DNA of 52,707 nt from Desulfobulbaceae bacterium (lineage in GTDB: Bacteria > Desulfobacterota > Desulfobulbia > Desulfobulbales > Desulfobulbaceae). Both the position numbers and the translations under genes were made by a program. Where the stretch lies: contig JANTGH010000007.1 in NCBI GenBank assembly GCA_024763055.1, positions 1 through 52,707 on the forward strand, in the 5' to 3' direction. Positions 5,003 to 45,619 of this stretch are shown piece after piece; position 1 is the first letter of the stretch; every line of letters starts with the position of its first letter. The notes under the pieces are model-generated. The model had not been told where the DNA came from. It saw only the letters and a program-made list of their open reading frames with translations, and did not search any database.

Positions 5003-8002
5003 TCACGAAATTGCTTCTCCGTCATTGTCGACAAGCTGCCTGGCAATGGTATGCAAGTGTTGCCGGTAGGCAAACATCCAGGGTTCATCTTCACGGGAGG
5101 CAAGGAAATGGCCCTGGTAGGCGGCAAGGGCCTTTTGGACAGCGTTGGCAGGGCCGTCACCGGTGGTCTGCTTTTTTGTGAGCGCTTGTCCCGCCAGCCG
5201 CTCAAACTGCCAGCTGTCCACCCAGCAGACCTGTGGATTCAAGGTAAGGCTGGATGGAGTCTGGAGAACGGCATCCCTGATATTTAACAGACCACGCAGC
5301 CGGTGCAGGGTAATCTTCAGCGAAGCCGCCTGCTCATCGCCGTTGCTGTCCGGCCAGAAGAGATCGGCCAGCCGTTCCTTGTTCACCTGTCGTCCGCCCA
5401 TGGCAATAATGGCCTGCAAAAGCTGGATTGGCTTCTTTTTTGCCATGGAAGCCGGGCTTATTTTGTGTCCGTGACGGAGAATGGAAAACCTGCCCAGGGT
5501 AAAGATCCGTATCGGCCAGGGCCAGTTGCTCAGATGGACCGGGGGATGACGGGGGGGTATATGCCACTGCTCAACAAAACGGCAGACAAAAGCAGGCTCA
5601 ATGTTTTCTTCCAGGGCCAGGACTGCTACCGCTTCCATCATTTTGGGCAGAAAGAAGAAAAAGGTGAGGTAGTTTTTTTCTCTCGCCAGGGAAAATCCCT
5701 GTTGCAGATGCTGGATCGCTTTTTCTTTTTCACCCTGTCGGCTGTACATGTAGGCAAGCCCAAGGTGGGCCTGGCAGGTAAACCATGGGTTGCCGGGCGC
5801 CGCCGCCAGTTTGAAAACCTGTTCAAAACAAGCCTCGGCCCGGTTGGCATTGTCCTGGAACACGGCCACCAGGGCTGACCCGTACCAGCACCAGGTGGAA
5901 TAAGAGGGCATGCCGATTTTCTCCGCCATGTCCAGGGCCGAACGCTGGTGCCGGTCTGCAGCGACAAGGTCATCACCAAGCAGGGCCTCCAGGGTCTTGA
6001 CCACATGGTAATAACTACGTTCAAGCAGCCGGGCCCGGTCGATGTTTTCCTCCATCAGATGCAGATAGCCGGCCGCCTCTTTTTCCCGGCCGCAGCTCAG
6101 GCAGCAACCGGCGCCGAGAATGTAAAAATGCACTTCCCATACCCGAATGCCTGTTTCCCGCATCATCTGCAAGGACTCTTCGATAACCCCAATACACTTG
6201 TCCGGTTCGGCCATGATCAGATAATACTGCACCTCCATGGCCTTGATGGCGGACAGCAGCAGTTTTGATCCGATCCTGTCTTTATGGGCGTAAATATTGT
6301 CCAGGGCGGCCCTGGCTTCCGGGAATCTGCCCGTCCACAGGTAATGGGTGATAAGGGCGGGATGCATGCCTCCCCGGCGAACGATGCGCTGCAGCCAGAG
6401 TTCAAGATCGGGGTGGTCCGGACGTCGCAGGACCAGCGCCCTGGCAATGGCGCTGGCCATGGTGCTGTTTTCAAAAGAGCCGTCATCGGGAACGGTCCGG
6501 GGGTCAAGGTGCTCCTCCAGAAAGTCCAGCCATGGATCAAGGGTGGGCAGCTCGGAGAGATGATTGATGATGGAATTGGTCAGGGAACAGCAGGCAAGCA
6601 GGGCGCCGGTGGTGTTATTTTCCTGTTGAAAGAGGGAAAAGCTTTTCTTAAGAATTCCAATAGCCTGAAGAGGGTCAAAGGCCGTGGTCGCAACTCCGAA
6701 GAAAAAGAGCAGCCATGGATTCTTGCCGACGATCCGCCGGGGCAGGGCCTGCTGCCAGCGAAGCAGTGTCTTGAACCTGCCCTGGTCTAACATGGCGGGA
6801 CCGCTTTTTCTAATACGTTCTACAGCTTTGTCCCAGCTTTTGGCCTGGATAAGCAAATCAACCGCTTCCGGGATGCGGTTGTCCATGACAAAGAAATCAG
6901 CCGCCTGCTCAAGAAAACCCGTCAGGAGGGCAGCCGGCATGACGGCACGTCCTTTTTGCCGAAGAAAGTCCCTGAACAGTGGGTGAAACTGGAACAGTTC
7001 ACCTTTGTTATCCAGTCGGTAGGTGAAAAAATTTTCCCGGCTGAGACGGCGAAAATATTCCCCGGCTCCATGATTTCCCTGCAGCCTGTCAAGAAGTCCC
7101 GGCCGGATCTCGGGAAAGCGGGCCGCCAGCATTAACCTTTCTCTTTCCTCTGCGCCAAGGCCCGCAAAAATAACACCGGCAAAATAGTCAAACAGTTCCT
7201 GGTGGTCCAGTTCGCCCTGCTGCTCCCGGGCGCAGGTTTCCCTGTTCTGTTCCTTCAAAAGCAGGGTCAGGCCGGCGGCCCAGCCGGCCGTAATTTTGTG
7301 GAGATAGCGAATACAGTTTTCCTGTTCCCTGGGGATGCCGTGCAGGGCCATGACCTTGCCGATCTCCGGCGGTGTGAAGCAAAGGCCGTCCGGATCAAGC
7401 ACCTGGATTTTTCCCTCCATGCACATCCTGGAAAAAACCAGAGAAGGCGGTTTTCTGCTCAACACAATGGCCCGGCAGGCAACAGGAATTTCCTGCAAAC
7501 ATATTCCCAACAGATCAACCAGGGGTGACTGCTCCGGGATTTCCTGGAAATTATCGAAAACAAGCAGCCATTTTCCCGGCATGGCGCCAAAGAGCAGTCG
7601 AAAAAATCTGCGGGCGAAAACAGGCAGGGCAAGCATGTCCTCGGGGCTGAGTCCGGGCAGCTTGCAATCACTGATGATACCGGGGAAATTGGGAATAAAA
7701 GCCTGGGGCAGGGTGGAGAAGAAGGAGACGACATCGGCGTCAAGGGGATCAAGCTCATACCAGAAGACCGGCATCGCGGCCTGCCTGCTATAGTTTGCTG
7801 CCAGCACGGTTTTTCCGGCCCCCGGCGGACCGTTGATCCAGACATGGCCTTTGGCAAGAGCGCCTGCCACCTCTGCCAGGAGTCGTTTCCGCGAAAGAAT
7901 GCGATCACCCTGTCCCGGCAGCCGCGTCTTTGGGGAGATTACCGGTTGTCGGCCGGGCTTGGCGTCTGAAGGCTCCACAAGGGTAAATCGGGCATTTTTC
8001 AC
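5003..8002 (-). CDS. STAND-ATPase transcriptional regulator with C-terminal SARP-type winged helix and BTAD
   Basis: The 999-residue regulator has a MalT-like NTPase module: Walker A GPPGAGKT at residues 58-65 and Walker B-like WLLVFDNFQEI near 155. A long helical, TPR-like region spans about 350-820. Near residue 828 an OmpR-type winged helix begins (IRIFTLGRFSI ... ALFWPD-like LADLFWPD ... LKITLHRLR), then a BTAD domain from about 926. I chose the GTG at 8002 because AGGAG lies 9 nt upstream; a TTG at 8035 is possible but would bury that site. STAND regulators usually switch on by ligand and ATP binding. The BTAD stops about 75 residues in, shorter than usual, and the stop lies about 30 bp from the repeat block. 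It is divergent from the exported-protein genes and is their likely activator. Confidence 0.87.
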   Translation of the reverse strand: MKNARFTLVEPSDAKPGRQPVISPKTRLPGQGDRILSRKRLLAEVAGALAKGHVWINGPPGAGKTVLAANYSRQAAMPVFWYELDPLDADVVSFFSTLPQAFIPNFPGIISDCKLPGLSPEDMLALPVFARRFFRLLFGAMPGKWLLVFDNFQEIPEQSPLVDLLGICLQEIPVACRAIVLSRKPPSLVFSRMCMEGKIQVLDPDGLCFTPPEIGKVMALHGIPREQENCIRYLHKITAGWAAGLTLLLKEQNRETCAREQQGELDHQELFDYFAGVIFAGLGAEERERLMLAARFPEIRPGLLDRLQGNHGAGEYFRRLSRENFFTYRLDNKGELFQFHPLFRDFLRQKGRAVMPAALLTGFLEQAADFFVMDNRIPEAVDLLIQAKSWDKAVERIRKSGPAMLDQGRFKTLLRWQQALPRRIVGKNPWLLFFFGVATTAFDPLQAIGILKKSFSLFQQENNTTGALLACCSLTNSIINHLSELPTLDPWLDFLEEHLDPRTVPDDGSFENSTMASAIARALVLRRPDHPDLELWLQRIVRRGGMHPALITHYLWTGRFPEARAALDNIYAHKDRIGSKLLLSAIKAMEVQYYLIMAEPDKCIGVIEESLQMMRETGIRVWEVHFYILGAGCCLSCGREKEAAGYLHLMEENIDRARLLERSYYHVVKTLEALLGDDLVAADRHQRSALDMAEKIGMPSYSTWCWYGSALVAVFQDNANRAEACFEQVFKLAAAPGNPWFTCQAHLGLAYMYSRQGEKEKAIQHLQQGFSLAREKNYLTFFFFLPKMMEAVAVLALEENIEPAFVCRFVEQWHIPPRHPPVHLSNWPWPIRIFTLGRFSILRHGHKISPASMAKKKPIQLLQAIIAMGGRQVNKERLADLFWPDSNGDEQAASLKITLHRLRGLLNIRDAVLQTPSSLTLNPQVCWVDSWQFERLAGQALTKKQTTGDGPANAVQKALAAYQGHFLASREDEPWMFAYRQHLHTIARQLVDNDGEAIS

Positions 8003-8070
8003 AGAGAAAATCTCCTGACCAAAAGAACGGTGCAATAAAAAAATTCTAAAAAATCATACCAAATCGTTGC

Positions 8071-9230: not shown

Positions 9231-9278
9231 TTTTTTCTCCCGTTTGTACCTCATATGTACCCTGCCGCCTGTTATCAT
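9231..9278 (+). promoter_or_regulatory. Candidate SARP operator and promoter, upstream of the beta-propeller operon
   Basis: TTTTTTCTC (9231-9239) is followed by the direct heptamers TGTACCT (9245-9251) and TGTACCC (9256-9262). Ten bp later is TATCAT (9273-9278), a good -10. The heptamers, their 4-bp spacer and the 10-bp gap to the -10 match the 8071-8117 element exactly; only the spacer after the T/C-rich box differs (5 versus 4 nt). Surrounding sequence is not conserved, so the shared part looks functional. A start near 9285 would leave a leader of about 105 nt before the ATG at 9391. Confidence 0.65.
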
Positions 9279-9390
9279 CAGGGAAAAGGAGATTCTCTTC
9301 CGGGTTGACAGACGGGTTCTTTATTGCTCACCGGCCCGCGGGGGAAATTACATAACCGGCGTTGAGATCGAAAAAATACGGGAGGTTGGC

Positions 9391-12300
9391 ATGATAAAAT
9401 TATATCGGTGTCCTGGTTGGATATTCCTGATAGTTTTCTTTTTCTTTATCGGGATTTCCGCCGTCGATAGTGAAAGCGCCGCTTCACCCGCAAAACAGGA
9501 GCAACGGGGAGTTCAAGCGATTCCCGCAGCACAAAATACCCTGCAACAGGATTTGCTGTCCAGGATTACGGAGGATATTCAACAGCGGGAATACTTTTTC
9601 CATCGAGGACCCGTTCACCCAGAACAATCAGACAAAAATATATGGCAGGCACCCAACCGCAAACATGATTTACGTGTCTATGCCGGCGAAAACGGTGTTG
9701 AAATCCTGGAACGCCGGGGTGAAGGAAAACGATTGCTTCAGTTGAAGACTGTTGCTTTTGGACGTTTCGGCAATCTGCGCTCTCCAGGATCAGGGAGCAT
9801 TTCAGCGCACAAAAACCGACTGGAAATACAACGGGACACACTGAGCGAATGGTATATCAACACGGAAGAGGGGATCGAACAGGGTTTTACGCTGCCGAAA
9901 AAGATTGCCGGAAGCAGGCCCTTGATCATTGAACTGGAATGCGATAAGCAGCCGATTGTACATGATGATACCCATCTGGTCTTCGCCTCCTCCGCCAGAC
10001 GTCCTCTTGACTATGGCAGTTTGATCGTCACGGATGCGCTGGAAAACCCGGTTCCTGCCAAATTTATTCTGCTTGCCGAAAACCGTTTCAGTATCCGGAT
10101 ACACGACCAGGCGGCAGTCTATCCCCTCACCATTGATCCGATCATTACCTCATCGTACGATTCCCTGCTCTATGGTGATCAGACAAATGAATACTTCGGC
10201 ACCTCGGTTGCCGATGCCGGGGATGTCAATGGCGATGGATACAGTGATATCATTGTCGGCGCCCCAAACTATGATAACGGCCAGAATCAAGAGGGCGCTG
10301 TTTTTCTTTTTTTAGGCGGATTGAGCGGAATTGCTCAAACTCCGTCGTATCATTGGGAAGGAGAGGTTGCAGGGGCACAGTTTGGAAATACCCTTTCGGG
10401 AGCCGGTGATGTCAATGGTGACGGCAAGGATGATTTTGTGGTGGGCACTGTGGAAAATTATCCATCAACCCAGGGCAGCGCCATCGTCTACTACGGCGAT
10501 GCGGATGTAACCAATGGCTTGAGTCACAGCGGCACTATAATTGGCTCCGGTGTGAATGATAAATTTGCGGCCAGTGTTTCAGGCGCCGGAGATGTCAATG
10601 GCGACGGATACAGTGACATTATCATCGGCGCCCCTGGATATGGCCGGAATTCGATAGTTGAAGAGGGACGGGCCTATCTTTTCTATGGTTCCGAATACGG
10701 CATTGATACCCTTGGTGTTGATGATTTTTCCTTTCAGAATACCGGACAGGTCATTGACCATTCCGGCTATCATTTCGGTACTACGGTTTCAGTTGCCGGT
10801 GATATTAATGGAGACGGGTATGGCGATGTTCTTGCCTCCACTGATCGCGATGATGCGGGTACCGGCAATGAAGTGTATATTTATTATGGCTCGTCATACG
10901 GCATTTCCACCACTCCCGCATTTTCCGAAAAAATAGTCTCACCCCAGGCAGACAGCGATTTTGGTATAGGCCTTGCTGCGGCCGGTGATCTCAACGGAGA
11001 CGGCTTTGGCGACATCGTTATCGGCGCTCCTTTGTATGATGCCGACGGCCTGACGGACCAGGGGGCGCTGTTTATTCATTTCGGCTCTTCATCCGGATTG
11101 TCTTCGACCATCTCCCCGCTCGCCTTTAAGTCGAACAGCAATGGCGCTTTTCTCGGCAGCAGTGTTTCCGGAAGCGGCGATCTCAATGGGGACGGCTACA
11201 GTGATTTTGTCGCCGGGGCACTTGGTTATAACCTCCATGACGGGGCGATTTTCATTTATCACGGAACTGCGGCGGGAGCGGCCTATTCCTCTAAAATTCA
11301 TCTTTCCGATGTCGGCGTAGAGTCAGGAGCAAGTGTCGCCGCCACCGGCGATGTCAACGGTGATGGATACGCCGATCTTGTCGCGGGAGCGCCGCTTATC
11401 GGCGTCAATCACTGCGGCGGGGTCTTTGTCTTTCATGGCGGGGCCGCGCTGTTGGACAATACTCCCGATTTTTTCCTCGAATCCAATCAGGCCGGGGCTG
11501 AGTTTGGATCATCGGTATCGGCTGCGGGAGATTTTAACGGCGATGGCTATGATGACATCATCATCGGAGCGCCTTATTTTGACAAAGGACAAGGCCATGA
11601 GGGTATGGCGTTTCTCTATTACGGTCCTCCCGGTGGCCTGCTCTGGCCCTTTCCCCTTCAGCTTGGGGGTGATGTTACGAATGCATATTTCGGGAAAAAT
11701 GTAGCGGCCGCTGGAGATGTGAACGGGGATGGCTATGATGATGTCATTATTGGGGCGCCAACCAGTCCTTTTGATGGAAAAGCGTTCATCTATTACGGAG
11801 ATGCATTCTTAAATTTTCCTCCCAAATCGTTTTTATCGGCTGGTGATGTGGTATCCGGGGCTGGAGATGTCAATGGCGATGGTTTTGCCGATGTTATAGT
11901 CGCTGCCCCTGACTTTGATAATTTCAAGGGGCGTGTTTCTCTTTTTCTTGGTTCCGCCCATGGCATTAAAACAATCCCCTCGGCCGGAATAATTGGCACA
12001 CACGGCTTTGGTTTCGGGAAGAACATCGCTGGAATCGGTGATATCAACGGAGACGGTTATTCCGATATCGCTGTTGGCGCCAAGGATTATGCTAATGGGG
12101 AGTCAGGGGAAGGCGCTGTTTTTATCTATCATGGCTCAGCTCATGGTTTATCAGCAACACAGACCTGCGTTCTGGAATCAGATATACCTTCAGCCGCATT
12201 GGGAGAGGTTTCAGGTGCCGGAGATGTCAACGGTGATGGGTTTGATGACATCATTGCAGGAGCGGATGGAATCGGCAAGGCCTATCTGTATCTTGGGTCA

Positions 12301-13143
12301 ACAACCGGCCTTACAAACAGCCTGCCTATTATTTTTCAGGGAAGTGATCCCGCTTTCGGCTTTCGCACTTCCGGCGCCGGTGATGTCAACGGTGATGGTT
12401 TTGACGATATTCTCGTGGCTGCCACATCCGATACTGTCTCTCTTTATTTCGGGAAAGCAAGTGGTCTTGATATCGGAACTCCAGTGGTTTTTCAGAGCAA
12501 TCAAAACAATTCCCTCTTCGGTTACGGTCTGTCCGGTGCCGGTGATGTCAATGGCGACGGTTTTGCAGACATCGTCATCGGAGCAGAAAGATATGATCAT
12601 GGTCAGACCGATGAAGGCGCGGCCTTTCTCTATCTCGGCAACAGCTCCAGTCGTCCTGTCCGCACAACTTTTCTCAGAAAAGACGATTCTCATCCAATCG
12701 CCTCCCGTGGCCTGTCCTATGACGACAGCGGCTTTGCTCTGCGCATGGATCTGCATTCACCACGGGGAAAGGAAAAAATCAGGATAGAGGCCCTGGTTTG
12801 CCCGGAAATTCAGCCGCCGCCGGGAATATTCAATGCCTGCGACACGTTTATTTCTCCCTGGCAGGATGGTGTCACATCTTACACCCTGCAGATGGCCGGT
12901 CTCAAGCCGGGACTCTATTCGATCCGGGCCCGACAGGCCTATGCCCCGTATGCCGCTGTCACCCAAGGGGTATACCAACCGGCGCATCTCTGTGCCAATA
13001 ATTATCCCTGTCCTTCGTCACAGCATGGTCCCTGGCGATATCTGCATGGCGATTCCTCGGAATCGGTCATACGCATCGGCATGCCAAAATCAGAATTCCC
13101 CTGGCCTATGTTTCTGCCGGCCATAATATCCGGCGGAAAATAA
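9391..13143 (+). CDS. Secreted FG-GAP / integrin-alpha-like beta-propeller protein with FLPAI C-terminal tag
   Basis: The 1250-residue exported protein starts at ATG 9391, preceded by GGGAGG; the frame extends upstream to a TTG at 9244 but that lies inside the operator. A signal peptide covers about residues 1-30. A domain at about 60-255 ends in AVYPLTIDP, a segment common just before FG-GAP arrays. Then come 14 repeats centred on GD-[VILF]-NGDG-[YFK]-xD (about 268-1080), each a calcium-binding DxNxDG loop. Fourteen fits two seven-bladed propellers. The C-terminal domain has cysteines and ends with FPWPMFLPAI five residues before the end. It is first of four co-directional genes. Adhesion or surface display is inferred; ligand unknown. 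Confidence 0.88.
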   Translation: MIKLYRCPGWIFLIVFFFFIGISAVDSESAASPAKQEQRGVQAIPAAQNTLQQDLLSRITEDIQQREYFFHRGPVHPEQSDKNIWQAPNRKHDLRVYAGENGVEILERRGEGKRLLQLKTVAFGRFGNLRSPGSGSISAHKNRLEIQRDTLSEWYINTEEGIEQGFTLPKKIAGSRPLIIELECDKQPIVHDDTHLVFASSARRPLDYGSLIVTDALENPVPAKFILLAENRFSIRIHDQAAVYPLTIDPIITSSYDSLLYGDQTNEYFGTSVADAGDVNGDGYSDIIVGAPNYDNGQNQEGAVFLFLGGLSGIAQTPSYHWEGEVAGAQFGNTLSGAGDVNGDGKDDFVVGTVENYPSTQGSAIVYYGDADVTNGLSHSGTIIGSGVNDKFAASVSGAGDVNGDGYSDIIIGAPGYGRNSIVEEGRAYLFYGSEYGIDTLGVDDFSFQNTGQVIDHSGYHFGTTVSVAGDINGDGYGDVLASTDRDDAGTGNEVYIYYGSSYGISTTPAFSEKIVSPQADSDFGIGLAAAGDLNGDGFGDIVIGAPLYDADGLTDQGALFIHFGSSSGLSSTISPLAFKSNSNGAFLGSSVSGSGDLNGDGYSDFVAGALGYNLHDGAIFIYHGTAAGAAYSSKIHLSDVGVESGASVAATGDVNGDGYADLVAGAPLIGVNHCGGVFVFHGGAALLDNTPDFFLESNQAGAEFGSSVSAAGDFNGDGYDDIIIGAPYFDKGQGHEGMAFLYYGPPGGLLWPFPLQLGGDVTNAYFGKNVAAAGDVNGDGYDDVIIGAPTSPFDGKAFIYYGDAFLNFPPKSFLSAGDVVSGAGDVNGDGFADVIVAAPDFDNFKGRVSLFLGSAHGIKTIPSAGIIGTHGFGFGKNIAGIGDINGDGYSDIAVGAKDYANGESGEGAVFIYHGSAHGLSATQTCVLESDIPSAALGEVSGAGDVNGDGFDDIIAGADGIGKAYLYLGSTTGLTNSLPIIFQGSDPAFGFRTSGAGDVNGDGFDDILVAATSDTVSLYFGKASGLDIGTPVVFQSNQNNSLFGYGLSGAGDVNGDGFADIVIGAERYDHGQTDEGAAFLYLGNSSSRPVRTTFLRKDDSHPIASRGLSYDDSGFALRMDLHSPRGKEKIRIEALVCPEIQPPPGIFNACDTFISPWQDGVTSYTLQMAGLKPGLYSIRARQAYAPYAAVTQGVYQPAHLCANNYPCPSSQHGPWRYLHGDSSESVIRIGMPKSEFPWPMFLPAIISGGK

Positions 13144-13179
13144 TGCTTGCTCACAACCTTTCCCGCATGGAGCATAAGA

Positions 13180-15684
13180 ATGAAAAGAATTCATTTCCTA
13201 ACCCTGGTACTGGTGCTTCTGCAAGCGCCCCTGGCAGTCGCTGCTCTGGAATTTAATCCGACACTTTCCCTGACCGCAGGATTCCCCGGTGATTTGCCCG
13301 ATAATACAAGAGTGGCCTACAACTCACGGCACAGGGAGTATCTCGTTGTCTACCAGTACCATAACAGTATACTGCCCGGTCCCGATCAGATCCATGCAGC
13401 CAGGCTTTCAGCTGACGGAAAATATATCGCCAACTATATCATTTCCGATTTGCTCAACAGCTGTGGCCAGCCGGATGTGGCCTATGACCCGCTTTTTGAC
13501 CGCTATCTTGTTGTCTGGGCCTATGATACCGCCAATGACGGCACTGACCATGGCTGGGATATATATGGCCGTTTTATCCCCTGGAGCGGACCGACTGACA
13601 CTCTGAACAGCTTTGAAATCGCGGCTGGATATGATGAATATACCGGCAGTGGTTTTCATCTTGCGGTGGCTGAAAAAAATCCGAGAATTGCCTACGGGAA
13701 GAAAAATAAAACTTTTCTTATCGTTATGGAAGCTGTTCCCATCGATCCAGGAAGCAAGCCATATATCACGGGAACCAAAGTGTCGGTTACCGGGAATAAT
13801 CACTGGCAGAATCTCACAATCAGACTTACTGACATCTCCCTCGTGACCCTTGCCCACCCCGATGTGGCCTATGACAGTCTCCAGGATGAGTTTCTCGTTG
13901 TCTTTGATGATAACGAAAACTCAAGTTCAGGTGGTAGTATCTTCGGTCAGTTTGTTACCGGTCAGGAAGCGGTTGGAGAACATCATACGCTTCACAATTT
14001 TGGGATTCGATTCAGTGAAATAAACCCTGGCATAGCGCTCAGCGGGCACCATGAGCGGCCTGCTGTTGACTATTGTCCCGCCGCAGATTTTTATCTTATC
14101 ACCTGGGTCACAAACCGTGATATCGGACTTGGAGACCTCTGGGCCCGGTATTACCCGGGCAGAAGTGTACAGCCGCCACCTTCTGCGGTCCATCTTGAAC
14201 AATTGGACACCGGAGATTCCGTCAATCTTGTCGATGTGGCCTGCGGCGCAAACAAAATCCCCACCAATGGGCCTCAGGGTGGAGCGGACTGCCTTGTTAC
14301 CTGGACCCTGCGCCATGACAATGCATTCTGGACCTTTGGCCGCCAGATATCTCTTGTCGGAGACAGCAATGGTAATTTACTCAGCCATGCCACCGGTTTT
14401 TTCGGCCCTCTGCAGAACCTGGGCGCCGAATCGTCCTGGGGAACAGGGGAGCCGCGTATCGGAGTTGCATCCGGCCCAAAGAATTTCTGCCCGGCCTTCA
14501 CCGGACTGGACAGTTTATCAAATCAACGGACATTCAGCCGAATGAGCAGCTACTCGCCCTTGCCGGGCTGGAGCGCTGTGACTGCGGATGCAGACAGTTT
14601 TCACGGTCTTGCTACCAGAAGAGACGGCTCGCTGTATGCGTGGGGATCAAACTATTATGGAGTTCTCGGCCTGGGGGATACCAAAGATAGGAATACACCA
14701 GAACAGGTTGGCTCGGCCAAAGATTGGGTCATGGTGAGCACAGGACAAGGTCATACCCTTGGTATCCGTTCCGATGGTTCCCTTTGGGCCTGGGGATACA
14801 ATTATTACGGCCAACTCGGTCTGGGGGACAACGGCGACAATACGGATAGAATAACACCTGTTCGCGTCGGTTCAGCAACAGACTGGATAACCGTGAGTGC
14901 GGGAGGCGATAGCAGTTTTGGTATTCGTTCCGACGGCTCTCTTTGGGCTTGGGGGGATAATTTGTTTGGCGGTCTTGGACTCGGCGATACCAACGACAGA
15001 AGCGTTCCGACCAGAGTGGGAACATGGAATGACTGGGTGGCGGTAAACGAAGGGCGTTGGTTTACTCTGGGTATTCGTGCTGATGGTTCCCTCTATGCCT
15101 GGGGATCAAACTTCGTAGGCCAGCTTGGACTCGGAGATTTCAACGACAGAACCGCACCTGCCCGGGTGGGGACATGGAATGACTGGGTAACTGTGAGCGC
15201 TGGAGATGACCACAGCCTTGGTATTCGTGCCGACGGTTCTCTCTATGCATGGGGGATGGGTGGCAGCAAGCTCGGCCTTGGTCCACATGATCCACACGCC
15301 AGCAGTCTAATTACAAAGGTCGGTTCGTTCACTGACTGGCTGACAGTGAGCGCTGGATTTGGCCACAGCCTTGGAATTCGTGCCGACGGCTCTCTATGGG
15401 CTTGGGGAGACAATCAGTCTGGTGAATTAGGATTGGGGGACAACGCTGAGAGAAATACACCCGCACGAGTCGGAACCTGGGCCTGGCAAACAATGGCGGC
15501 CGGGGATTTCTACAGCTTCGCCATCCGTTCCGACGGCTCCCTGTGGTCCTGGGGTTACAACCATGGAACCCTTGGTCTCGGCGATACAACGGATAGAAAC
15601 ATCCCCACCCAGGTCTTCCTGCCTAAATCAAAATTCCCCTGGGCCATGTTCCTGCCGGCCATAATAAACGGGAAAACCAACTGA
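13180..15684 (+). CDS. Secreted protein with repeated-blade domain, seven RCC1 repeats and FLPAI tag
   Basis: The 834-residue protein starts at ATG 13180 (GGAG 8-11 nt upstream) with a clear signal peptide (residues 1-22, cleaved near AVAA). The N-terminal half (about 24-455) has recurring blades of the form VAY-[NDG]-x-x-x-x-EYLVV-[YFW], suggesting a beta-propeller. From about 460 there are seven RCC1 units (SLGIRADGSL-[WY]-AWG...QLGLGD), enough for a complete seven-bladed propeller. The last residues are KFPWAMFLPAI plus six. The N-terminal half is close to that of the next gene, so the two are paralogues. RCC1 repeats in bacteria are usually in exported proteins; the partner is unknown. 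Confidence 0.85.
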   Translation: MKRIHFLTLVLVLLQAPLAVAALEFNPTLSLTAGFPGDLPDNTRVAYNSRHREYLVVYQYHNSILPGPDQIHAARLSADGKYIANYIISDLLNSCGQPDVAYDPLFDRYLVVWAYDTANDGTDHGWDIYGRFIPWSGPTDTLNSFEIAAGYDEYTGSGFHLAVAEKNPRIAYGKKNKTFLIVMEAVPIDPGSKPYITGTKVSVTGNNHWQNLTIRLTDISLVTLAHPDVAYDSLQDEFLVVFDDNENSSSGGSIFGQFVTGQEAVGEHHTLHNFGIRFSEINPGIALSGHHERPAVDYCPAADFYLITWVTNRDIGLGDLWARYYPGRSVQPPPSAVHLEQLDTGDSVNLVDVACGANKIPTNGPQGGADCLVTWTLRHDNAFWTFGRQISLVGDSNGNLLSHATGFFGPLQNLGAESSWGTGEPRIGVASGPKNFCPAFTGLDSLSNQRTFSRMSSYSPLPGWSAVTADADSFHGLATRRDGSLYAWGSNYYGVLGLGDTKDRNTPEQVGSAKDWVMVSTGQGHTLGIRSDGSLWAWGYNYYGQLGLGDNGDNTDRITPVRVGSATDWITVSAGGDSSFGIRSDGSLWAWGDNLFGGLGLGDTNDRSVPTRVGTWNDWVAVNEGRWFTLGIRADGSLYAWGSNFVGQLGLGDFNDRTAPARVGTWNDWVTVSAGDDHSLGIRADGSLYAWGMGGSKLGLGPHDPHASSLITKVGSFTDWLTVSAGFGHSLGIRADGSLWAWGDNQSGELGLGDNAERNTPARVGTWAWQTMAAGDFYSFAIRSDGSLWSWGYNHGTLGLGDTTDRNIPTQVFLPKSKFPWAMFLPAIINGKTN

Positions 15685-15707
15685 TATTTGTGGAGAGGAG
15701 AGGGAAG

Positions 15708-17072
15708 GTGAAGAAAAAACGGCACGAACTAACGGGTAAGACAATAAAAATAATTCTCTGTTGTTTGTTGTTCTGGCTCTTGCCCGCAACTGCCGGGGCA
15801 GCCCTTGAATTTAATGCGACCCGTTCCCTTACCGCCGGTTGGCCCGGCGATCAGCCCAACTATCCCAGGGTCGCCTATAATTCCCGGCGCAATGAATACC
15901 TCGTGGTGTACGAGTATCATAATGATTTTATTCCGGGATCGATTCAGATCCATGGAGCCCGGCTTTCCGCCACAGGCAACTATATCGCCAATTACATCAT
16001 TTCCGACCTGCCCAATAACTGTGTGCAGCCTGATGTTGACTATGATCCAGTCCAGGACCGCTATCTTGTAGTCTGGAGCTATGACCGGCTTGGGAACAAT
16101 GGGGACTGGGATATTTATGGTAGATTTGTACCCGCGACAGGTCCGGTCGATACCCTGCCCGGCATGACCATTGGTGGTTTCTCCACCTGGAACGAATCAC
16201 ATCCCCGCCTTGCCTACGGCGCCGTTGACCGGGATTTTTTTGTGGTCTTTGACCTGGAAACCGGCGGCGCCCACCAGCCAGGCATCGCAGGATTCAGAGT
16301 GCCGGCCGATGGTTCACCATCCTGGCATTACATGTACATACGCGAAAATACCTATCAAGAGCCCAGAATGCATCCTGACATTGCCTATAATCCATTACGG
16401 GATGAATTCCTGGTCGTTTATGACAATGCGCTGGATATTTATGGGCATATCTTTCCGGGCCATGCCACCAATGGTCAATTTTATAATATCACGGATATTG
16501 GTCTGGCAATGACAGAGTTGCCTGCTCCGGCTACGCCCCTGCCCGGTATCCATGATTATCCGGCAATTTCCTTTTCGCCCGGCGCCAACTATTACATCAT
16601 TACCTGGGACACCAACAGGGCTACTGGTCATGGCGATATCTACGCCCGTTATTATCCCGGCGGCAACACCCTGCCGACAACTGTATACATGGAACTGCTC
16701 GACAACAACGCTGATCATGATAGAAATTCGTCGGTAGCCTGCAAAAATGACGGCACAGGATGCCTGGCACTCTGGATAGTGAAACACAACGGCATCCTCT
16801 TTACCTTTGGCCGGGAAATTTCCCTTAAAAGTGATGCTTCCGGCGTGCTGATAAGCCATGACACCGGTTTTTACGCACCCCTTGATAACCTGTCGACTGC
16901 CTCATCCTGGAGCAGGTATCCCACCGTCGCCATTGCCGGTGGCCGGAAAAATTTTTACCTGGCCTTTATGGGAAAAAGCCCCAACGCAATAAATATATTC
17001 GGCAGGAATACACTTTTTTCTTCCTTTTCCTGGCCCATGTTTCTACCAGCGATAATACATAGAAAGAAATGA
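15708..17072 (+). CDS. Secreted blade-repeat protein without RCC1 array, FLPAI tag
   Basis: The 454-residue protein is a shorter paralogue of the preceding one. I chose GTG 15708 because GGAGAGG lies about 8 nt upstream; GTG 15690 is the alternative. The signal peptide has a basic n-region (KKKRHELTGK) and is cleaved near AGA at about residue 30. The mature protein starts ALEFNATRSLTAGWPGD, nearly the same as its neighbour, and keeps the VAYNSRRNEYLVV blade motif several times, but has no RCC1 array. It ends FSWPMFLPAI plus five residues. Gap to the previous stop is 23 bp, so same transcript. Confidence 0.83.
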   Translation: MKKKRHELTGKTIKIILCCLLFWLLPATAGAALEFNATRSLTAGWPGDQPNYPRVAYNSRRNEYLVVYEYHNDFIPGSIQIHGARLSATGNYIANYIISDLPNNCVQPDVDYDPVQDRYLVVWSYDRLGNNGDWDIYGRFVPATGPVDTLPGMTIGGFSTWNESHPRLAYGAVDRDFFVVFDLETGGAHQPGIAGFRVPADGSPSWHYMYIRENTYQEPRMHPDIAYNPLRDEFLVVYDNALDIYGHIFPGHATNGQFYNITDIGLAMTELPAPATPLPGIHDYPAISFSPGANYYIITWDTNRATGHGDIYARYYPGGNTLPTTVYMELLDNNADHDRNSSVACKNDGTGCLALWIVKHNGILFTFGREISLKSDASGVLISHDTGFYAPLDNLSTASSWSRYPTVAIAGGRKNFYLAFMGKSPNAINIFGRNTLFSSFSWPMFLPAIIHRKK

Positions 17073-17106
17073 GATGATGTCTGCATTTTATGAGAGGAAC
17101 AGCGTT

Positions 17107-19239
17107 ATGAAATTCGTAAAAATCACCATTCTGATCACTTTACTTGTTGCTCTTTTTTATGGTCCCTGTCTGGCCGACTCTGTAATCCGTGGCGGGGAAT
17201 GGGGCGATGCCGCCCCGAAAGTCGTTTACAACAGCACCGACCATGAATACCTGGTCGTCTGGAATGAATTTATGACGGTCTGGCCGGTTTTCGGGCCGGT
17301 CATGGGACGGCGGCTGGCCGCAAACGGGGAAAAATTAGGGCCTCCATTCAAGATTTTTGACAGCGGCGTCAAGGCCGATGTCGTCTATGACCCGGACAAT
17401 GACCGGTACTGCGTGGTCTGCGAGAGCAATTTCACAGCCAGGCTCTGTTTTCTCGATGCCAAAGGGAAAAATATCGGCGCTCCGCAGCCCTATGCCAACA
17501 GCAGTTTTCCAAAAATTTACTACAATACCCTGGATCATAATTTTCTCCTCATCTTTATACATCTGGAGGATACGGGATCGGGCACCTGCAATCGGTCCCT
17601 GCGGGCCATGGCCATTGACGGCAACGGGGTTGCCGGTACCCAAAATAACGTTGCAACCCTCACCAACGACAGTTGTACGGCCGGAACATACTTTGCCGCC
17701 GCCTATGCTCCCATTGACTCCACCTTGACCCCGAACGGCCGCTATCTGGTCGGGGTCGGGAGTGTCGAAGCACCTTTATACATGCTCAACCGTGATGGTA
17801 ACCGGGTGCTGGTAAAGCCCGGAACAGGCGGAACCGGCTATGAAATCAATTTTAACGCCGATGCTGAAATCGCGGAAAACCTGGACATTGCCTTTGGTTA
17901 TCGACAGGGCAATGCGCAGGATCCGGTTTTCCTGGTCATCTGGGGCGAGCGGAGCAATAATAAATACTATGACAACAATCAGTGGACCGGGATTTACGGC
18001 GGCGTGGTGGATGCCGACCTTGATGATTATTCCGGCGAGATCAACAACTACACCTTTCCTATCTCCCTGCAGTGGACACATGCTGTCAGCGCTGCCGAAA
18101 CCTGGAATCCGAAAGCGGGTTACAACCCGGCAACCGGCAGATTTGTCGTCACCTGGCGGGAAACGCCGGGCCCTTCGCCGGACCCGCGCGACCTGGCCGA
18201 ACATAATCATATTCGAGCTGAAACACTCAAAACCCTGGATCCGGGTTATCCTGGCGGCAACATCCTGCTTTCAAAGGATATTGGTGCCGCAGATCCGGGC
18301 CTGCCCGCCCTGGCTGCCAATGGCCCGTCCGCCCTTACCGTCTGGCAGGATAACAGGAATTCAGCCACATCCATGTCCGATATCTTCGGTACGCTAATCA
18401 ATGTGAACAACAAGACCGTACATAATCTTCAAAGCAGTGTCCGGGGCTGGATCGCCGTGGCAGCTGGGCAGGGGCACAGCTGCGGGATTCGTTCCGATGG
18501 TTCCCTCTGGGCCTGGGGATGGAATGCTAATGGCCAACTGGGGTTGGGAGATACCAGTAACCGCAATGTCCCCACTCAGGTGGGGATTCACCAGGACTGG
18601 ATAGCTGTGAAAGCCGGAAGTTTTCACAGCCTCGGAATTCGCTCCGACGGTTCGCTCTGGGCATGGGGAGGGAATAATAGTGGCCAATTGGGAGTAGGAT
18701 ATCCCAATAACAGTCCTTCCCCCACTCAGGTGGGGACTCTCCGGGACTGGATAGCGGTGACAGCCGGAGATCTTCATAGCCTCGGAATTCGTGCCGACGG
18801 TTCCCTCTGGGCCTGGGGGTGGAATGCTAATGGCCAACTGGGGTTGGGAAATACCAATGACAGCTACCATGCCCCCACTCTGATGGGGAATGACAATTGG
18901 ATAACGGTAGCAGCTGGGCATGGGCACAGTCTCGGGACTCGTTCCAACGGCTCGCTCTGGGCCTGGGGGTGGAATACTTATGGTCAACTGGGGTTGGGAA
19001 ATACCAATGACAGCTACCATGCCCCCACTCTGGTGGGGAGTGACAATTGGATAACGGTGGCAGCCGGGTTTGGTCACAGTCTCGGAATTCGTTCCGACGG
19101 TTCGCTCTGGGTCTGGGGCCTCAATCAGTATGGCCAGCTCGGTTTAGGGGATACACGGGACAGAAATGTACCCACCCTGGTCGGCAAAAAATTTCCCTGG
19201 ACCATGTTTCTGCCGGCAATGGTCGGGCATCACCCGTAA
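17107..19239 (+). CDS. Secreted protein with blade-repeat domain, five RCC1 repeats and FLPAM tag
   Basis: The 710-residue protein starts at ATG 17107 (GAGAGGA about 8 nt upstream) with a signal peptide cleaved near CLA-DS (residue 23). The N-terminal domain (about 25-440) has VVYN-x-x-x-x-EYLVVWNE-type blades, more diverged than in the two preceding genes. About 445-695 holds five RCC1 units (GSLWAWGWNANGQLGLGD and variants), two fewer than a closed propeller needs. Two units are nearly identical at DNA level. The end is KFPWTMFLPAM plus five residues. It closes the four-gene run; no obvious terminator lies in the 93-bp convergent gap. Confidence 0.83.
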   Translation: MKFVKITILITLLVALFYGPCLADSVIRGGEWGDAAPKVVYNSTDHEYLVVWNEFMTVWPVFGPVMGRRLAANGEKLGPPFKIFDSGVKADVVYDPDNDRYCVVCESNFTARLCFLDAKGKNIGAPQPYANSSFPKIYYNTLDHNFLLIFIHLEDTGSGTCNRSLRAMAIDGNGVAGTQNNVATLTNDSCTAGTYFAAAYAPIDSTLTPNGRYLVGVGSVEAPLYMLNRDGNRVLVKPGTGGTGYEINFNADAEIAENLDIAFGYRQGNAQDPVFLVIWGERSNNKYYDNNQWTGIYGGVVDADLDDYSGEINNYTFPISLQWTHAVSAAETWNPKAGYNPATGRFVVTWRETPGPSPDPRDLAEHNHIRAETLKTLDPGYPGGNILLSKDIGAADPGLPALAANGPSALTVWQDNRNSATSMSDIFGTLINVNNKTVHNLQSSVRGWIAVAAGQGHSCGIRSDGSLWAWGWNANGQLGLGDTSNRNVPTQVGIHQDWIAVKAGSFHSLGIRSDGSLWAWGGNNSGQLGVGYPNNSPSPTQVGTLRDWIAVTAGDLHSLGIRADGSLWAWGWNANGQLGLGNTNDSYHAPTLMGNDNWITVAAGHGHSLGTRSNGSLWAWGWNTYGQLGLGNTNDSYHAPTLVGSDNWITVAAGFGHSLGIRSDGSLWVWGLNQYGQLGLGDTRDRNVPTLVGKKFPWTMFLPAMVGHHP
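18841..19070 (+). repeat. 150-bp RCC1 unit recently duplicated
   Basis: Bases 18841-18920 recur at 18991-19070 with only a handful of differences, an exact 150-bp offset equal to one RCC1 unit. A further match joins 18511-18550 to 18811-18850, two units apart. Such identity is unusual inside an RCC1 array and indicates recent unit duplication or gene conversion. Confidence 0.85.
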
Positions 19240-19332: not shown

Positions 19333-21783
19333 TCACCAACTGAGAATTTGGTCGATAAGTTCCGTTCTCTCTAATACCGACTCCATGGCCGCCGGAGGAA
19401 AGGCGAGGTAGGTGGCCCGGTAGCTGCTGCCGTTTCGGGTGGTTCCCACGGGTAAGCCGTTCATGTGCAGGATGGTTGCGGCGGAACCTGGAGTTAACGT
19501 ATAGGTGTTGTCACCGCGACTGACCGGAGGATCCAGCGAAGTATTGCCGAAACCGGCGAGCAGGCCGATCCCGGTAATATTTTGCGTTGCTGTGTAGCCG
19601 CCCATGGAGTTTATGCCGAGATAATCCGTCATCAGCGGTGAAGCCACCGGCCAGGCATGATACATGTGACTGCTGAACAGCAGGGTGGCATCACCGGCAG
19701 TATCAAGCCGGCTTTCCAGGGCGGATTCGCCGGCGGCGGTTAGGTAGGCCGTACCGATATCCGCATAGCCCATGGACCAGATAATTGTCTGGTAACGACG
19801 TAAAACGGCAAGGTCCGGCTCGAGGTTTCCGCTGCCGGTATCCCAGATGTCATAGCGTTTTCCCAGGGGAAAAAGGGCGGCGTCGTATCCGCTTCGACTC
19901 CAGCTTTTTTCCGGATCGGCATCGTCTTCAACAAACAGTATTGTCGCCCCCGGACGGCAGAATGATGGTTGCCCACTTCCCTGGTAGCCGACGCTTACCC
20001 CGGCATTTTGCATAATGGTCAAGGCTGCCGTCGGCCAGTTTCCAGCCTGAACAACTTCGGTGTTGCCGATGACATTGCCCATCCCCTGGTTAACAAAATG
20101 TCCGTTATCCGTAAAATTATCGGTAGCGGTATTGTTATCGCCATTATGAATAAATAACCATGCATCACCGGTGTGGGATATGACATTATCATGGATCCGG
20201 TAACCGCTTGTTCCTTCATCGGCATAGACAGCACTCTGGGAATTGGGCTGTCTGCACATGTAGTTATAGCTGATTTCCGAGTTCGGCTGCGGACTTAGGG
20301 TGTACACGCCACCGCCGTCGTGCAGGGTATGCATGTAATTTTCTATCCAGTTCGCTTGAATGCTATTGCTCCCGGCAGAGGAATCCGTTCCCCATCCCCA
20401 GCCGACGGAAATCCCGGAATAGGGCAGATCCCGCAGCTCATTATGTTCAATGGTCATTGATTTGACATATCCTGCAAATATTCCCACCCCGTCGTGATAT
20501 TCCCGGCCAACCCCAACTATTACATTATTGCTGATAATCGAATGGGTAGAGAGTGCGTCCGGGCTGATGTCGCCAAACTGAATGCCGCTTGAAGAGATGT
20601 CTTCAAACCGGTTACCGATGATATGGATATCCGTGCTGTTTTCGGCGATTGTCAACCCCGTCCCGCCAAGATGAATAAAGGTATTGCCGCTAAATGTTAT
20701 GGACGAGCCGTGGGTAACGTGTACGGCGGCCGGCGTTTTTTCAAGTGTTCCATCCGTGCCGATAAAATGAAATCCCGCCTGCAGATCGGCATAGCCGTTC
20801 GGACCTGAGGGCGTCAGCCAGGTGGTATGGGCAAAGGTTATCCCGGAAAAGGAAATATTGCCGACTGGTGTTTCGGCCGTGCCATGGACCGAAACAAGGG
20901 TTTGCACGCGTGGATAGATAAATTCCTCCTGATCAGGGTTTTCATCGGGAGCGGGTTTGTAATATAGATAGCCGGAGTTTCGGTCAAGGTACCATTCTCT
21001 TTGTTCATCAAGCAGTTCGTAACTGTTTTCAATCCAGGTGACATGATCAAAGCCGCTGTCGGGCTGATACGTTCCGCTGGAATTTGACCAACAGGGGTCC
21101 TGCAGGCTCATACTGGTGCCGGAGATCCCTGCGACCGGGCAGCGAAAACTGCGCCACTCGTTAAATCCGACGATTTCAATATCCTCAATATTGTTCCATC
21201 CCTGCATGAGCGGATCAATGTCGGTAAATCCAGCCGCGTTTCGGCTGTAGCCGCCAGGGTTGTCTGCGCCTCGCGCCCGAATTGCCCGCTCGCCATTGAC
21301 GTAAACCTGCCGGAAATTTATACCTGCTCCTATCCGGGTTCGATAAATCCCCTGGTTGGTGTCATAAAGCGCCCAGCCGGTAACCGTGGTCCCTCCGCTG
21401 ATGACCGGGGTTTCGCCGGGGTAGGCCTTGTAATAGACAGTGTGACCATTGGTTCCTGAATCGACGGCGGACAGTTCAAAGGTGGTGTTGAGTTTGTAGG
21501 CGCCGCCTCGCAAATAGACGCTGATGTTCGCGGACATACCCTGAGTGCTGTTCAGGGATCGTATGAGATCCCTGGCCGTGGTCAAGGAACAGGGGGCGCT
21601 CATACTGCAGGCTGTTCCACTGCCGGTCGGGCTTACGTGCAAGGCATCGGCATCCGGCTTGGGCATTGGATGGCCAAGAATCGCCGGGAGAAAATTTAAA
21701 ATAGTGCTTTTTTTCGCATACACATCTGCCGGGGACAACAAAACAGTAAGCAAAAAACCGACAACAACAAAACAAGTATTCAT
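19333..21783 (-). CDS. Secreted right-handed beta-helix protein with N-terminal FLPAI motif
   Basis: The 816-residue protein has a signal peptide (1-23, cleaved near VYA-KK). FLPAILGHP follows at 31-39, right after the mature N-terminus. DALHVSPTGSGTACS begins a parallel beta-helix domain (about 48-590) with many short strands such as GNTFIHLGGTGLTIAENSTD and SIISNNVIVGVGREYHDG, as in pectate-lyase-like PbH1 proteins. The C-terminal part (about 600-816), starting ATILFVEDDADPEKSW, looks like a separate alpha/beta domain. Substrate, probably a polysaccharide, is unknown. It converges on the propeller operon and lacks the TGTACC double repeat upstream, so co-regulation is not shown. Confidence 0.82.
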   Translation of the reverse strand: MNTCFVVVGFLLTVLLSPADVYAKKSTILNFLPAILGHPMPKPDADALHVSPTGSGTACSMSAPCSLTTARDLIRSLNSTQGMSANISVYLRGGAYKLNTTFELSAVDSGTNGHTVYYKAYPGETPVISGGTTVTGWALYDTNQGIYRTRIGAGINFRQVYVNGERAIRARGADNPGGYSRNAAGFTDIDPLMQGWNNIEDIEIVGFNEWRSFRCPVAGISGTSMSLQDPCWSNSSGTYQPDSGFDHVTWIENSYELLDEQREWYLDRNSGYLYYKPAPDENPDQEEFIYPRVQTLVSVHGTAETPVGNISFSGITFAHTTWLTPSGPNGYADLQAGFHFIGTDGTLEKTPAAVHVTHGSSITFSGNTFIHLGGTGLTIAENSTDIHIIGNRFEDISSSGIQFGDISPDALSTHSIISNNVIVGVGREYHDGVGIFAGYVKSMTIEHNELRDLPYSGISVGWGWGTDSSAGSNSIQANWIENYMHTLHDGGGVYTLSPQPNSEISYNYMCRQPNSQSAVYADEGTSGYRIHDNVISHTGDAWLFIHNGDNNTATDNFTDNGHFVNQGMGNVIGNTEVVQAGNWPTAALTIMQNAGVSVGYQGSGQPSFCRPGATILFVEDDADPEKSWSRSGYDAALFPLGKRYDIWDTGSGNLEPDLAVLRRYQTIIWSMGYADIGTAYLTAAGESALESRLDTAGDATLLFSSHMYHAWPVASPLMTDYLGINSMGGYTATQNITGIGLLAGFGNTSLDPPVSRGDNTYTLTPGSAATILHMNGLPVGTTRNGSSYRATYLAFPPAAMESVLERTELIDQILSW

Positions 21784-44539: not shown

Positions 44540-45619
44540 ATGAATCCCGCCACCCTTATTCCAACACCCGATGCAATCCCGGTTGGCTGGGGCTGGTTTC
44601 AACTCCTGCTGACTTTGACATTTTACCTGCATATCCTGGCCATGAACGTCATGCTGGGCACGGTGATCATCGCCTTTGTCCAGAACTTTTCCTCTGAAGG
44701 CAAATCTCTGCCCGTGAGCCGGCAGATTGCAAAAAAACTCCCCTACACCATTGCCCTTGCCGTAAATCTCGGCGTCGCGCCTCTTCTCTTTGTCCAGGTT
44801 ATTTACGGACATCTCATCTATGTCAGTTCAATCCTTATGGGTGTCTTCTGGCTCTCAATTGTCGCCCTGCTGATCATTGCCTATTATTCCGCCTATATTT
44901 ACTGTTATCGTTATAAAAACATGCGGGCCGGACGCATGGTGACCACAGGCCTCACCACGCTTTCCCTGCTCTGCATAGGCTTTTTCCTCAGCAATAACAT
45001 AACGATGATGCAGAACCCGGAATTCTGGCCCCGTTTTTTTGACCATCCTGATGGTTTTCTCCTGCACTTCAGTGACCCAACCCTTATTCCCCGCTACCTG
45101 CATATGATCGTTTCCGCCATTGCCGTAGGAGGCCTGGCCATAGCGCTCTGGTACACATACCAGGCATCGCGGGGGCAAGAGGATTGTTCACAGTGGATCA
45201 AATACGGATGTAACTGGTTTGCCGGGGCCACGATCGCCAACTATGGACTCGGCTTCTGGTTTTTCGGGGTTCTGCCGCACGGACTCATCAATCCGGCCAC
45301 ACTCGTCGGCGGCCTGTTTTCCCTTTTTCTCATTCTGGCCGTTATCACCGGCGCGCTATCGATTATCTCAGCCATGCGTTATCGACCGCTGCCGGCTACC
45401 TGGTATACCCTGGGTACCATCCTGCTCATGGTGCTTGCGCGCGACTTTCTCCGGGCCGCCTATCTACAGCCCTGGTTTTCTCCTGCCGAGCTGACCGTAC
45501 AACCGGCCTGGTCCCCTTTTATCCTCTTTCTCCTCTTTTTTATTGCCGGCCTGATCCTTATCGGTTGGATGCTGAAAATCACCTATGTCAGTCTTCGGAA
45601 TAGGGAGGTGCAGTCATGA
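44540..45619 (+). CDS. Polytopic membrane subunit, diverged CydA-like
   Basis: The 359-residue protein has about nine membrane helices. The first (LLLTLTFYLHILAMNVMLGT, with His about 31) aligns with the first helix of the next protein and with the CydA helix carrying the haem b595 His. Near the end LARDFLRAAYLQPWF sits where CydA has GRQPW. RYLHMIVSAIAVGG holds a second buried His. I infer a second CydA-derived subunit instead of a CydB, with moderate confidence. AAGGAGG precedes the ATG and the stop overlaps the next start in ATGA. Confidence 0.7.
   Translation: MNPATLIPTPDAIPVGWGWFQLLLTLTFYLHILAMNVMLGTVIIAFVQNFSSEGKSLPVSRQIAKKLPYTIALAVNLGVAPLLFVQVIYGHLIYVSSILMGVFWLSIVALLIIAYYSAYIYCYRYKNMRAGRMVTTGLTTLSLLCIGFFLSNNITMMQNPEFWPRFFDHPDGFLLHFSDPTLIPRYLHMIVSAIAVGGLAIALWYTYQASRGQEDCSQWIKYGCNWFAGATIANYGLGFWFFGVLPHGLINPATLVGGLFSLFLILAVITGALSIISAMRYRPLPATWYTLGTILLMVLARDFLRAAYLQPWFSPAELTVQPAWSPFILFLLFFIAGLILIGWMLKITYVSLRNREVQS

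Follow-up and report, generated by a model that had tools for sequence, protein, structure and literature searches.

A ten-residue, helix-free tag on exported proteins of the Desulfobulbales as a candidate envelope address label

To our knowledge, the C-terminal sorting signals of Gram-negative bacteria either combine a membrane helix with an intramembrane enzyme or are folded domains. The GlyGly-CTERM includes a membrane helix and a basic end, the PEP-CTERM occurs on several to many proteins per genome, among varied exported proteins, and the C-terminal signals of the type IX secretion system (T9SS) are folded domains of about 80 residues on varied secreted proteins. In the cytosol, the cargo-loading peptides of encapsulins place a short hydrophobic tail motif in a specific protein pocket. 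The GlyGly-CTERM of Vibrio is a transferable motif that, with a separate secretion signal, puts cargo of the type II secretion system (T2SS) on the cell surface (PMC13393428), and it is tripartite (PMC11980579); the MYXO-CTERM of the Myxococcota is a lineage-specific C-terminal tag, found on dozens of proteins per genome and used for surface delivery by the T2SS (PMC11980579); and both work with the T2SS, are tripartite and are processed by proteases (PMC13393428, PMC11980579). Here we describe a ten-residue motif, closing in FLPA[IM], at the ends of four consecutive proteins encoded in a 52,707-nucleotide stretch, hereafter the window, of a Desulfobulbaceae bacterium (assembly GCA_024763055.1, contig JANTGH010000007.1, positions 1 to 52,707). 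The motif recurs on other proteins of this genome and of its relatives, and it is close to certain that it is a real, selected and export-linked tag.

The four tagged proteins are encoded on the forward strand. Protein 1, an FG-GAP repeat protein recognized from its frame and a domain scan (9244..13143), likely starts at 9391, where the predicted sequence is signal-peptide-like (MIKLYRCPGWIFLIVFFFFI...); it closes with FPWPMFLPAIISGGK before the stop at 13141-13143, and its tag (13096..13140) consists of the core FPWPMFLPAI (13096-13125) and the tail ISGGK. Protein 2 (13147..15684, 835 aa, likely start 13180 with MKRIHFLTLVLVLLQAPLAV...) combines a propeller with RCC1 repeats, and its last residues, FPWAMFLPAIINGKTN, precede the stop at 15682-15684; here the tag (15634..15681) is the core FPWAMFLPAI (15634-15663) with the tail INGKTN. 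The propeller-only protein 3 (15690..17072) has a signal-peptide-like start, matches no Pfam family and finishes with FSWPMFLPAIIHRKK (stop 17070-17072), its tag (17025..17069) being FSWPMFLPAI (17025-17054) plus IHRKK. Protein 4, a second propeller and RCC1 protein supported by frame, domain scan and pairwise comparison (17074..19239, likely start 17107 with MKFVKITILITLLVALFYGP...), ends in FPWTMFLPAMVGHHP (stop 19237-19239), with FPWTMFLPAM (19192-19221) and the tail VGHHP making up the tag (19192..19236). Five, six, five and five residues follow FLPA[IM] in proteins 1 to 4. An earlier reading of the sequence alone had reported four consecutive proteins that end in F-[PS]-W-[PAT]-M-F-L-P-A-[IM], with FLPA[IM] five to six residues from the C-terminus, and that differ in domain make-up; the frames bear out the first statement and the scan (FG-GAP; RCC1; no Pfam family; RCC1) the second. 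Proteins 2, 3 and 4 are not independent cases of the tag, because their N-terminal propellers are related (protein 3 shares 47% identity with protein 2 and, compared one to one with protein 4, gives E=1e-10). Protein 1, with its FG-GAP repeats, is unrelated to them and counts as an independent case, as do the tagged proteins in the rest of the genome. Two independent types of tagged protein thus support the case within the window, and the rest of the genome therefore matters.

Searched with a DNA pattern for F-[FL]-P-A-[IM], the same genome gave 48 matches, compared with 16 for the reversed pattern, and a reading of the match contexts placed four further C-terminal tags and one variant outside the window. 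One tag, on contig C12, closes a 731-aa frame in which a thermolysin-type model matched over a stretch read as a GEVED repeat; two, both on contig C64, close frames of 978 and 86 aa; and one, on contig C143, was also matched by a hidden Markov model (HMM) although absent from its seed set. The variant, FPWILYVPPI, is the end of a multicopper-oxidase-like protein on contig C12. Built from seven tails, the HMM returned eight matches at E<1e-6 in this genome, the C143 tag being the single non-seed among them. A degenerate 20-base pattern proved too loose here (474 matches, 340 with the pattern reversed).

Beyond this genome, the tag looks specific to one lineage. A nine-tail HMM matched 34 of the 115 genomes of our first set, and an HMM of 58 tags matched 56 of the 257 genomes of the order Desulfobulbales, with up to 27 matches per genome; both counts include the window's own genome. 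All 56 fall in just two families, 32 in the first (f1) and 24 in the second (f12). Outside the order, five genomes match the 58-tag HMM (395 genomes drawn from the phylum): two, G457 and G499, have at the stop what looks like a true variant, EDFYWPMFMPAILKGQNVTQ, the match in G264 is to an 80-aa frame, and the remaining two are G301 and G395. An exact DNA pattern for the core returned 110 stretches among 84,980 species, of which 80 loci were readable, and 70 of 83 readable pattern matches end 2-9 residues before a stop. Assigned to Desulfobulbaceae, Desulfocapsaceae, Desulfocapsa, Desulfobulbus, Desulfogranum, Desulfobacteraceae or unranked Delta- or Proteobacteria are 76 of the 80 loci, and one tagged contig comes from the cultured Desulfogranum japonicum DSM 18378, a member of the order. 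The four clearly non-desulfobacterial loci (L202, L224, L228 and L246) appear to be chance matches, about two being expected by calculation, and were left out of the tag counts; L246 alone had stood in the list of 139 tags. Viral contigs gave a single DNA-pattern match, and it partly coincides with the end of a frame predicted on the other strand.

Diverged forms of the tag also occur. A 23-base pattern, run on 31 genomes in which few tags or none had been detected, yielded mainly noise and a few variant tags. The variant ends FPWALFFPSI and FPWNVFIPAI occur in G035, and PSWSLFIPAI in G199. Homologues of protein 3 were found in three of the 257 genomes of the order, namely its own, G035, in which the relative closes with the diverged tag FPWALFFPSIQHAAKK, and G016, in which the match spans residues 17-157 only; a tag-free orthologue of protein 3 was not found among these 257. 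Our literature search, with most subscription papers outside its reach, found no description of the motif.

From 138 distinct tags (the 139 listed minus the chance match L246) we derived the consensus [FS]-[PS]-W-x-[ML]-F-L-P-A-[IM]. Across the 139, W and the second P are invariant, position 6 is F (133) or Y (6) and nothing else, L occupies the next position in 130, A is found in 131, and the last residue is I in 121 and M in 15. The 80 tags found by HMM and not by DNA pattern repeat these preferences (W and second P invariant; F/Y, 74/6; A, 73; I, 74) and vary at position 4. At the level of DNA, the 36 copies of the peptide FPWPMFLPAI are written in 35 different sequences and the 138 tags in 136, and over seven codons of the core the pairwise difference per site comes to 0.13 at first, 0.05 at second and 0.62 at third codon positions. 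Because third codon positions vary while residues hold, a recent copy or a DNA repeat is disfavoured, the first of which had already been doubted from the window alone. Nor is the similarity part of a longer homology: in an alignment of 131 tagged proteins, from which two frames of less than 70 aa and five references from the list of 136 were excluded, every invariant or near-invariant column lies within the tag and mean column identity is 6%. Run on about 1.0 million residues of frames, among which its own seeds lie, the 58-tag HMM produced 171 matches of at least 15 bits, none of them below 18; once these frames were shuffled or reversed, the best score was 8.9 bits, with none at 15 or above.

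The core lies 2-9 residues before the stop in 122 of the 138 tags, 10-20 residues before it in 6, and farther in 10. Full tags stand directly behind a signal peptide at four loci (L135, L154, L192 and L235) and diverged ones at two (L378 and L385), and three tags are internal (L182, L184 and L186). The description of the motif as a C-terminal tag accordingly holds for the 122 but not strictly, given the ten beyond 20 residues and those behind signal peptides. Within the window, the minus strand encodes a possible further case: a degenerate form without W, ILNFLPAI (21679..21702), directly behind the signal peptide in a beta-helix protein whose gene (19333-21783, also on that strand) is convergent with the tagged cluster. 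Taken alone its match is weak (E=2), and the assignment is backed only by its position and by the full N-terminal tags elsewhere. A relative of this beta-helix protein also adjoins a tagged gene in locus L242. Two further arrangements were noted, one in L230 and L236, where the tag follows RHS/YD repeats by a few residues and stands about 30 residues before the stop, and one in genus g1 (L169, L176 and L244), where a 16-residue tail rich in His, Asn and Pro and ending in Phe follows the core.

No membrane helix was found in the tails, where the best 19-residue hydropathy reaches 1.6 or more in only 1 of 122 (median 0.77); the sequence-only reading had judged the motif too short for a membrane anchor. 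The tag is often preceded by Lys, and its tail is mostly neutral to positive. In a structure model of a leucine-rich repeat (LRR) protein, the repeats mostly exceed 90 pLDDT and the tag region (271-283) falls below 50, a pattern more in keeping with a free tail than with a strand inside the predicted LRR domain.

The tag occurs together with many types of domain. NCBIfam and Pfam results for the 131 proteins cover the 25 commonest families per scan, without positions. Among these, InlB-type B-repeats occur in 19 of the 131, next to SBBP and RCC1 propellers, FG-GAP, LRR, GEVED, Lcl_C, laminin-G, thrombospondin-3 and Kelch domains and peptidases of the subtilase, C10, C39 and M12B types, a repertoire that, by sequence, looks typical of secreted or surface proteins. 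NCBIfam places 10 of the 131 in choice-of-anchor Q, a family whose name refers to variable anchors, which speaks for an address role. Its M36-peptidase models that bear the names of T9SS, of myxosortase and of rhombosortase each match one tagged member, possibly through an accessory domain. In the per-protein NCBIfam and Pfam tables, the tag falls within none of the best-scoring stretches at E 0.001, although HMMER filters may drop very short models. A signal-peptide heuristic accepted 67 of 83 tagged and 115 of 331 untagged frames of at least 250 aa, the untagged including spurious frames; of the 16 tagged failures, at least 8 look like signal peptides by eye, one of them, in L134, with a twin-arginine-like start. 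Among the 108 tags whose frames have a closed 5' end, three lipobox-like starts were seen. Many further tagged, apparently exported proteins were thus found in this genome and in related ones, by HMM and by DNA pattern.

We asked which known machinery accompanies the tag. Exosortase is absent from 8 of the 9 tag-rich genomes (at least 5 tags), the window's included, most of which are drafts, and over the whole set it turned up in 8 of the 34 tagged genomes and in 32 of the 81 others. Rhombosortase scored above the cut-off (84 bits) in only two of 40 genomes (G009 and G013), 33 of the 40 being tagged, with near misses in G152 (82.7 bits) and G035 (81.5 bits); weaker matches can be read as rhomboid background, being seen in all 14 controls as well. 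Exosortase and rhombosortase do not explain the tag, and no search was made for sortase or myxosortase genes. For the T2SS, a GspD-like match was present in 113 of the 115 genomes of the first set, and the 99 above the cut-off comprise 31 of 34 tagged and 68 of 81 other genomes (p=0.24). Family f12 is less uniform: 23 of its 24 tagged genomes have a GspD match at E<=1e-60, against 41 of the 69 others (p=4e-4), or 14 of 14 versus 28 of 40 when only good genomes are counted (p=0.016), and the lone tagged genome without a match is 83% complete. This link to the T2SS is a suggestive correlation. Two observations concern the T2SS operon itself. In the window's own genome, contig C16 (L327:2-2041) encodes, at the GspG end of the operon, a delta-60-repeat protein with a CFI-box-CTERM end; G014 (L335:17568-19910, minus strand) has this protein joined to GspG in frame, which makes a single polypeptide of delta-60 repeats, CTERM domain and major pseudopilin.

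Residue identity in the tag is much stricter than hydrophobicity requires, and for this reason the tag is likely an address read by a protein, the strict specificity favouring a protein pocket as the reader. Tagged proteins would use Sec to pass the inner membrane, and one or more of them look like Tat substrates; after export, a dedicated receptor of the periplasm or outer membrane would bind the exposed tag non-covalently and retain or sort the protein at the cell surface, with the outer membrane possibly crossed through the T2SS. From the occurrence of tags at N-terminal and internal sites, we infer docking of this non-covalent kind rather than cleavage. That the tag is a lineage-specific address label of the Desulfobulbales, bound non-covalently by a receptor in the envelope, we regard as evenly balanced between right and wrong on the present sequence comparisons. 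More tentative, and short of an even chance, is the broader proposal of a helix-free, position-tolerant sorting code of the envelope with its own receptor, readable at either terminus or between domains and possibly coupling cargo to the T2SS. Several observations count against such a label and its receptor. The receptor was not found: the neighbours of tagged genes belong to common families (755 frames clustered, 40 largest clusters), those that recur widely without a tag being response regulators (14 loci), ABC ATPases (8) and RHS-type proteins (6), along with lineage neighbours. Nor did the T2SS regions of tagged genomes show an additional gene of their own in the 18 loci compared, some of which are truncated where a contig stops. 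The GspD genes of G140, G195 and G206 are partial or split and fall below the cut-off; counted strictly, 20 of the 24 tagged f12 genomes stand against 41 of the 69 others (p=0.03), and among good genomes the counts are 12 of 14 and 28 of 40 (p=0.22), a difference that is not significant, as in the first set. These statistics are correlative and carry no correction for relatedness, and tagged genomes are undercounted among those scored as untagged, since variant tags exist. Finally, the position of the tag outside a fold comes from a single structure model built on an alignment of four sequences, where a shallow alignment also lowers confidence and low pLDDT does not prove disorder.

The alternatives differ in how the tag would act. 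It might anchor proteins directly, a decapeptide rich in W, F, M, L and I inserting into the membrane interface with no receptor. Such a role suits its strong hydrophobicity with Trp and Pro, the frequent Lys before it, its mostly neutral to positive tail and its presence at either end of a protein or between domains; we nonetheless consider it unlikely, as an invariant P, A in 131 of 139 and only F or Y at position 6 are far stricter than hydrophobicity needs, and hydropathy is too low for a span, though an interface anchor need not span. A sorting signal cut by a sortase-like protease or transpeptidase, which would attach the protein to an envelope component as in the CTERM systems, is distinctly unlikely in our estimate. 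The place of 122 of 138 tags near the C-terminus, with a short variable tail behind the core, speaks for it, and some tagged families, such as choice-of-anchor Q, carry other C-terminal anchors elsewhere; against cleavage stand the missing transmembrane helix, the distributions of exosortase and rhombosortase, which do not track the tag, and the N-terminal and inter-domain tags, which would be severed from the protein or would cut it. The sequence-only reading had offered sorting, docking or processing, and of these sorting and docking remain candidates; processing is the least likely of the three, because cutting an N-terminal or inter-domain tag would detach it or split the protein and because neither enzyme follows the tag.

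The lineage's T2SS might also recognize the tag itself, as an outer-membrane translocation signal, and release or display the tagged proteins. The GspD counts in f12 favour this, as do the Sec-like signals and the one Tat-like signal, which T2SS substrates also have. Yet the link is weak at the strict cut-off, many T2SS-positive relatives lack a detected tag, and the signals that the T2SS reads in other bacteria are probably surfaces of folded proteins; we find the idea very doubtful. The remaining possibility is that there is no tag at all, the motif going back to an ordinary strand in some domain that the proteins share, to recent duplication or to a DNA repeat translated by accident. Three of the four window proteins are indeed partial paralogues, but the 131 proteins have only the tag in common, the tags differ in DNA almost without exception, shuffled and reversed frames give no match, and in one model the tag lies outside the LRR fold. 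We assign this next to no probability, and the claim that the motif is not a strand of one shared domain is upheld. Among all these readings, the receptor-bound address label is the one we carry forward.

Two other genes of the window deserve mention. An 880-aa protein (45616-48258) joins a part resembling cytochrome bd subunit I to CBB3- and MtrC-like multihaem domains. Upstream of the tagged cluster, the minus strand encodes a 1010-aa ATPase/TPR regulator-like protein (5003-8035), and a frame of 1010 aa clusters with one near a tagged gene in locus L249.

If the receptor-bound address label is correct, a helix-free motif of ten residues with up to 27 matches per genome would be a different solution to Gram-negative sorting. 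Tag-bearing proteins can be listed by pattern in the Desulfobulbales, which makes it possible to predict some of the envelope proteome in these bacteria of the sulfur cycle. The tag also bears on what marks proteins for export across, or retention at, the outer membrane, a matter testable with a short peptide as bait.

Set beside the known systems, the tag resembles each in some respect. Like the PEP-CTERM, it marks several to many varied exported proteins per genome; the PEP-CTERM, however, is tripartite with a membrane helix, and the new tag is helix-free and its tag-rich genomes, with one exception, lack exosortase. LPXTG signals of sortases share little with it, since LPA[IM] lacks the T-G of LPXTG and no helix follows. 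It is a C-terminal signal on varied secreted proteins, as in the T9SS, but one of about ten residues, conserved in 131 proteins and outside the fold in one model, in place of a domain. The cargo-loading peptides of encapsulins are likewise short hydrophobic tail motifs; unlike these cytosolic signals, the new tag sits on proteins that look exported. A YLPLV-type motif of exported Chloroflexota proteins, with which the sequence-only reading loosely compared the tag, may be a similar short Leu-Pro motif, and a literature search gave nothing on it. The MYXO-CTERM, with its myxosortase, is also a C-terminal tag specific to one lineage, but it combines an invariant Cys with a membrane helix and an end rich in Arg; no Cys is conserved in the 138 cores of the new tag, which lacks a helix and also stands at N-terminal and internal positions. 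As with the GlyGly-CTERM and rhombosortase, a C-terminal tag is carried by unrelated exported proteins, although the GlyGly-CTERM is processed by a rhomboid protease and the new tag has neither helix nor conserved GG in its core. The first reading's contrast with LPXTG, PEP-CTERM and GlyGly-CTERM is thereby borne out, and in role the closest published tags are the GlyGly-CTERM and the MYXO-CTERM.

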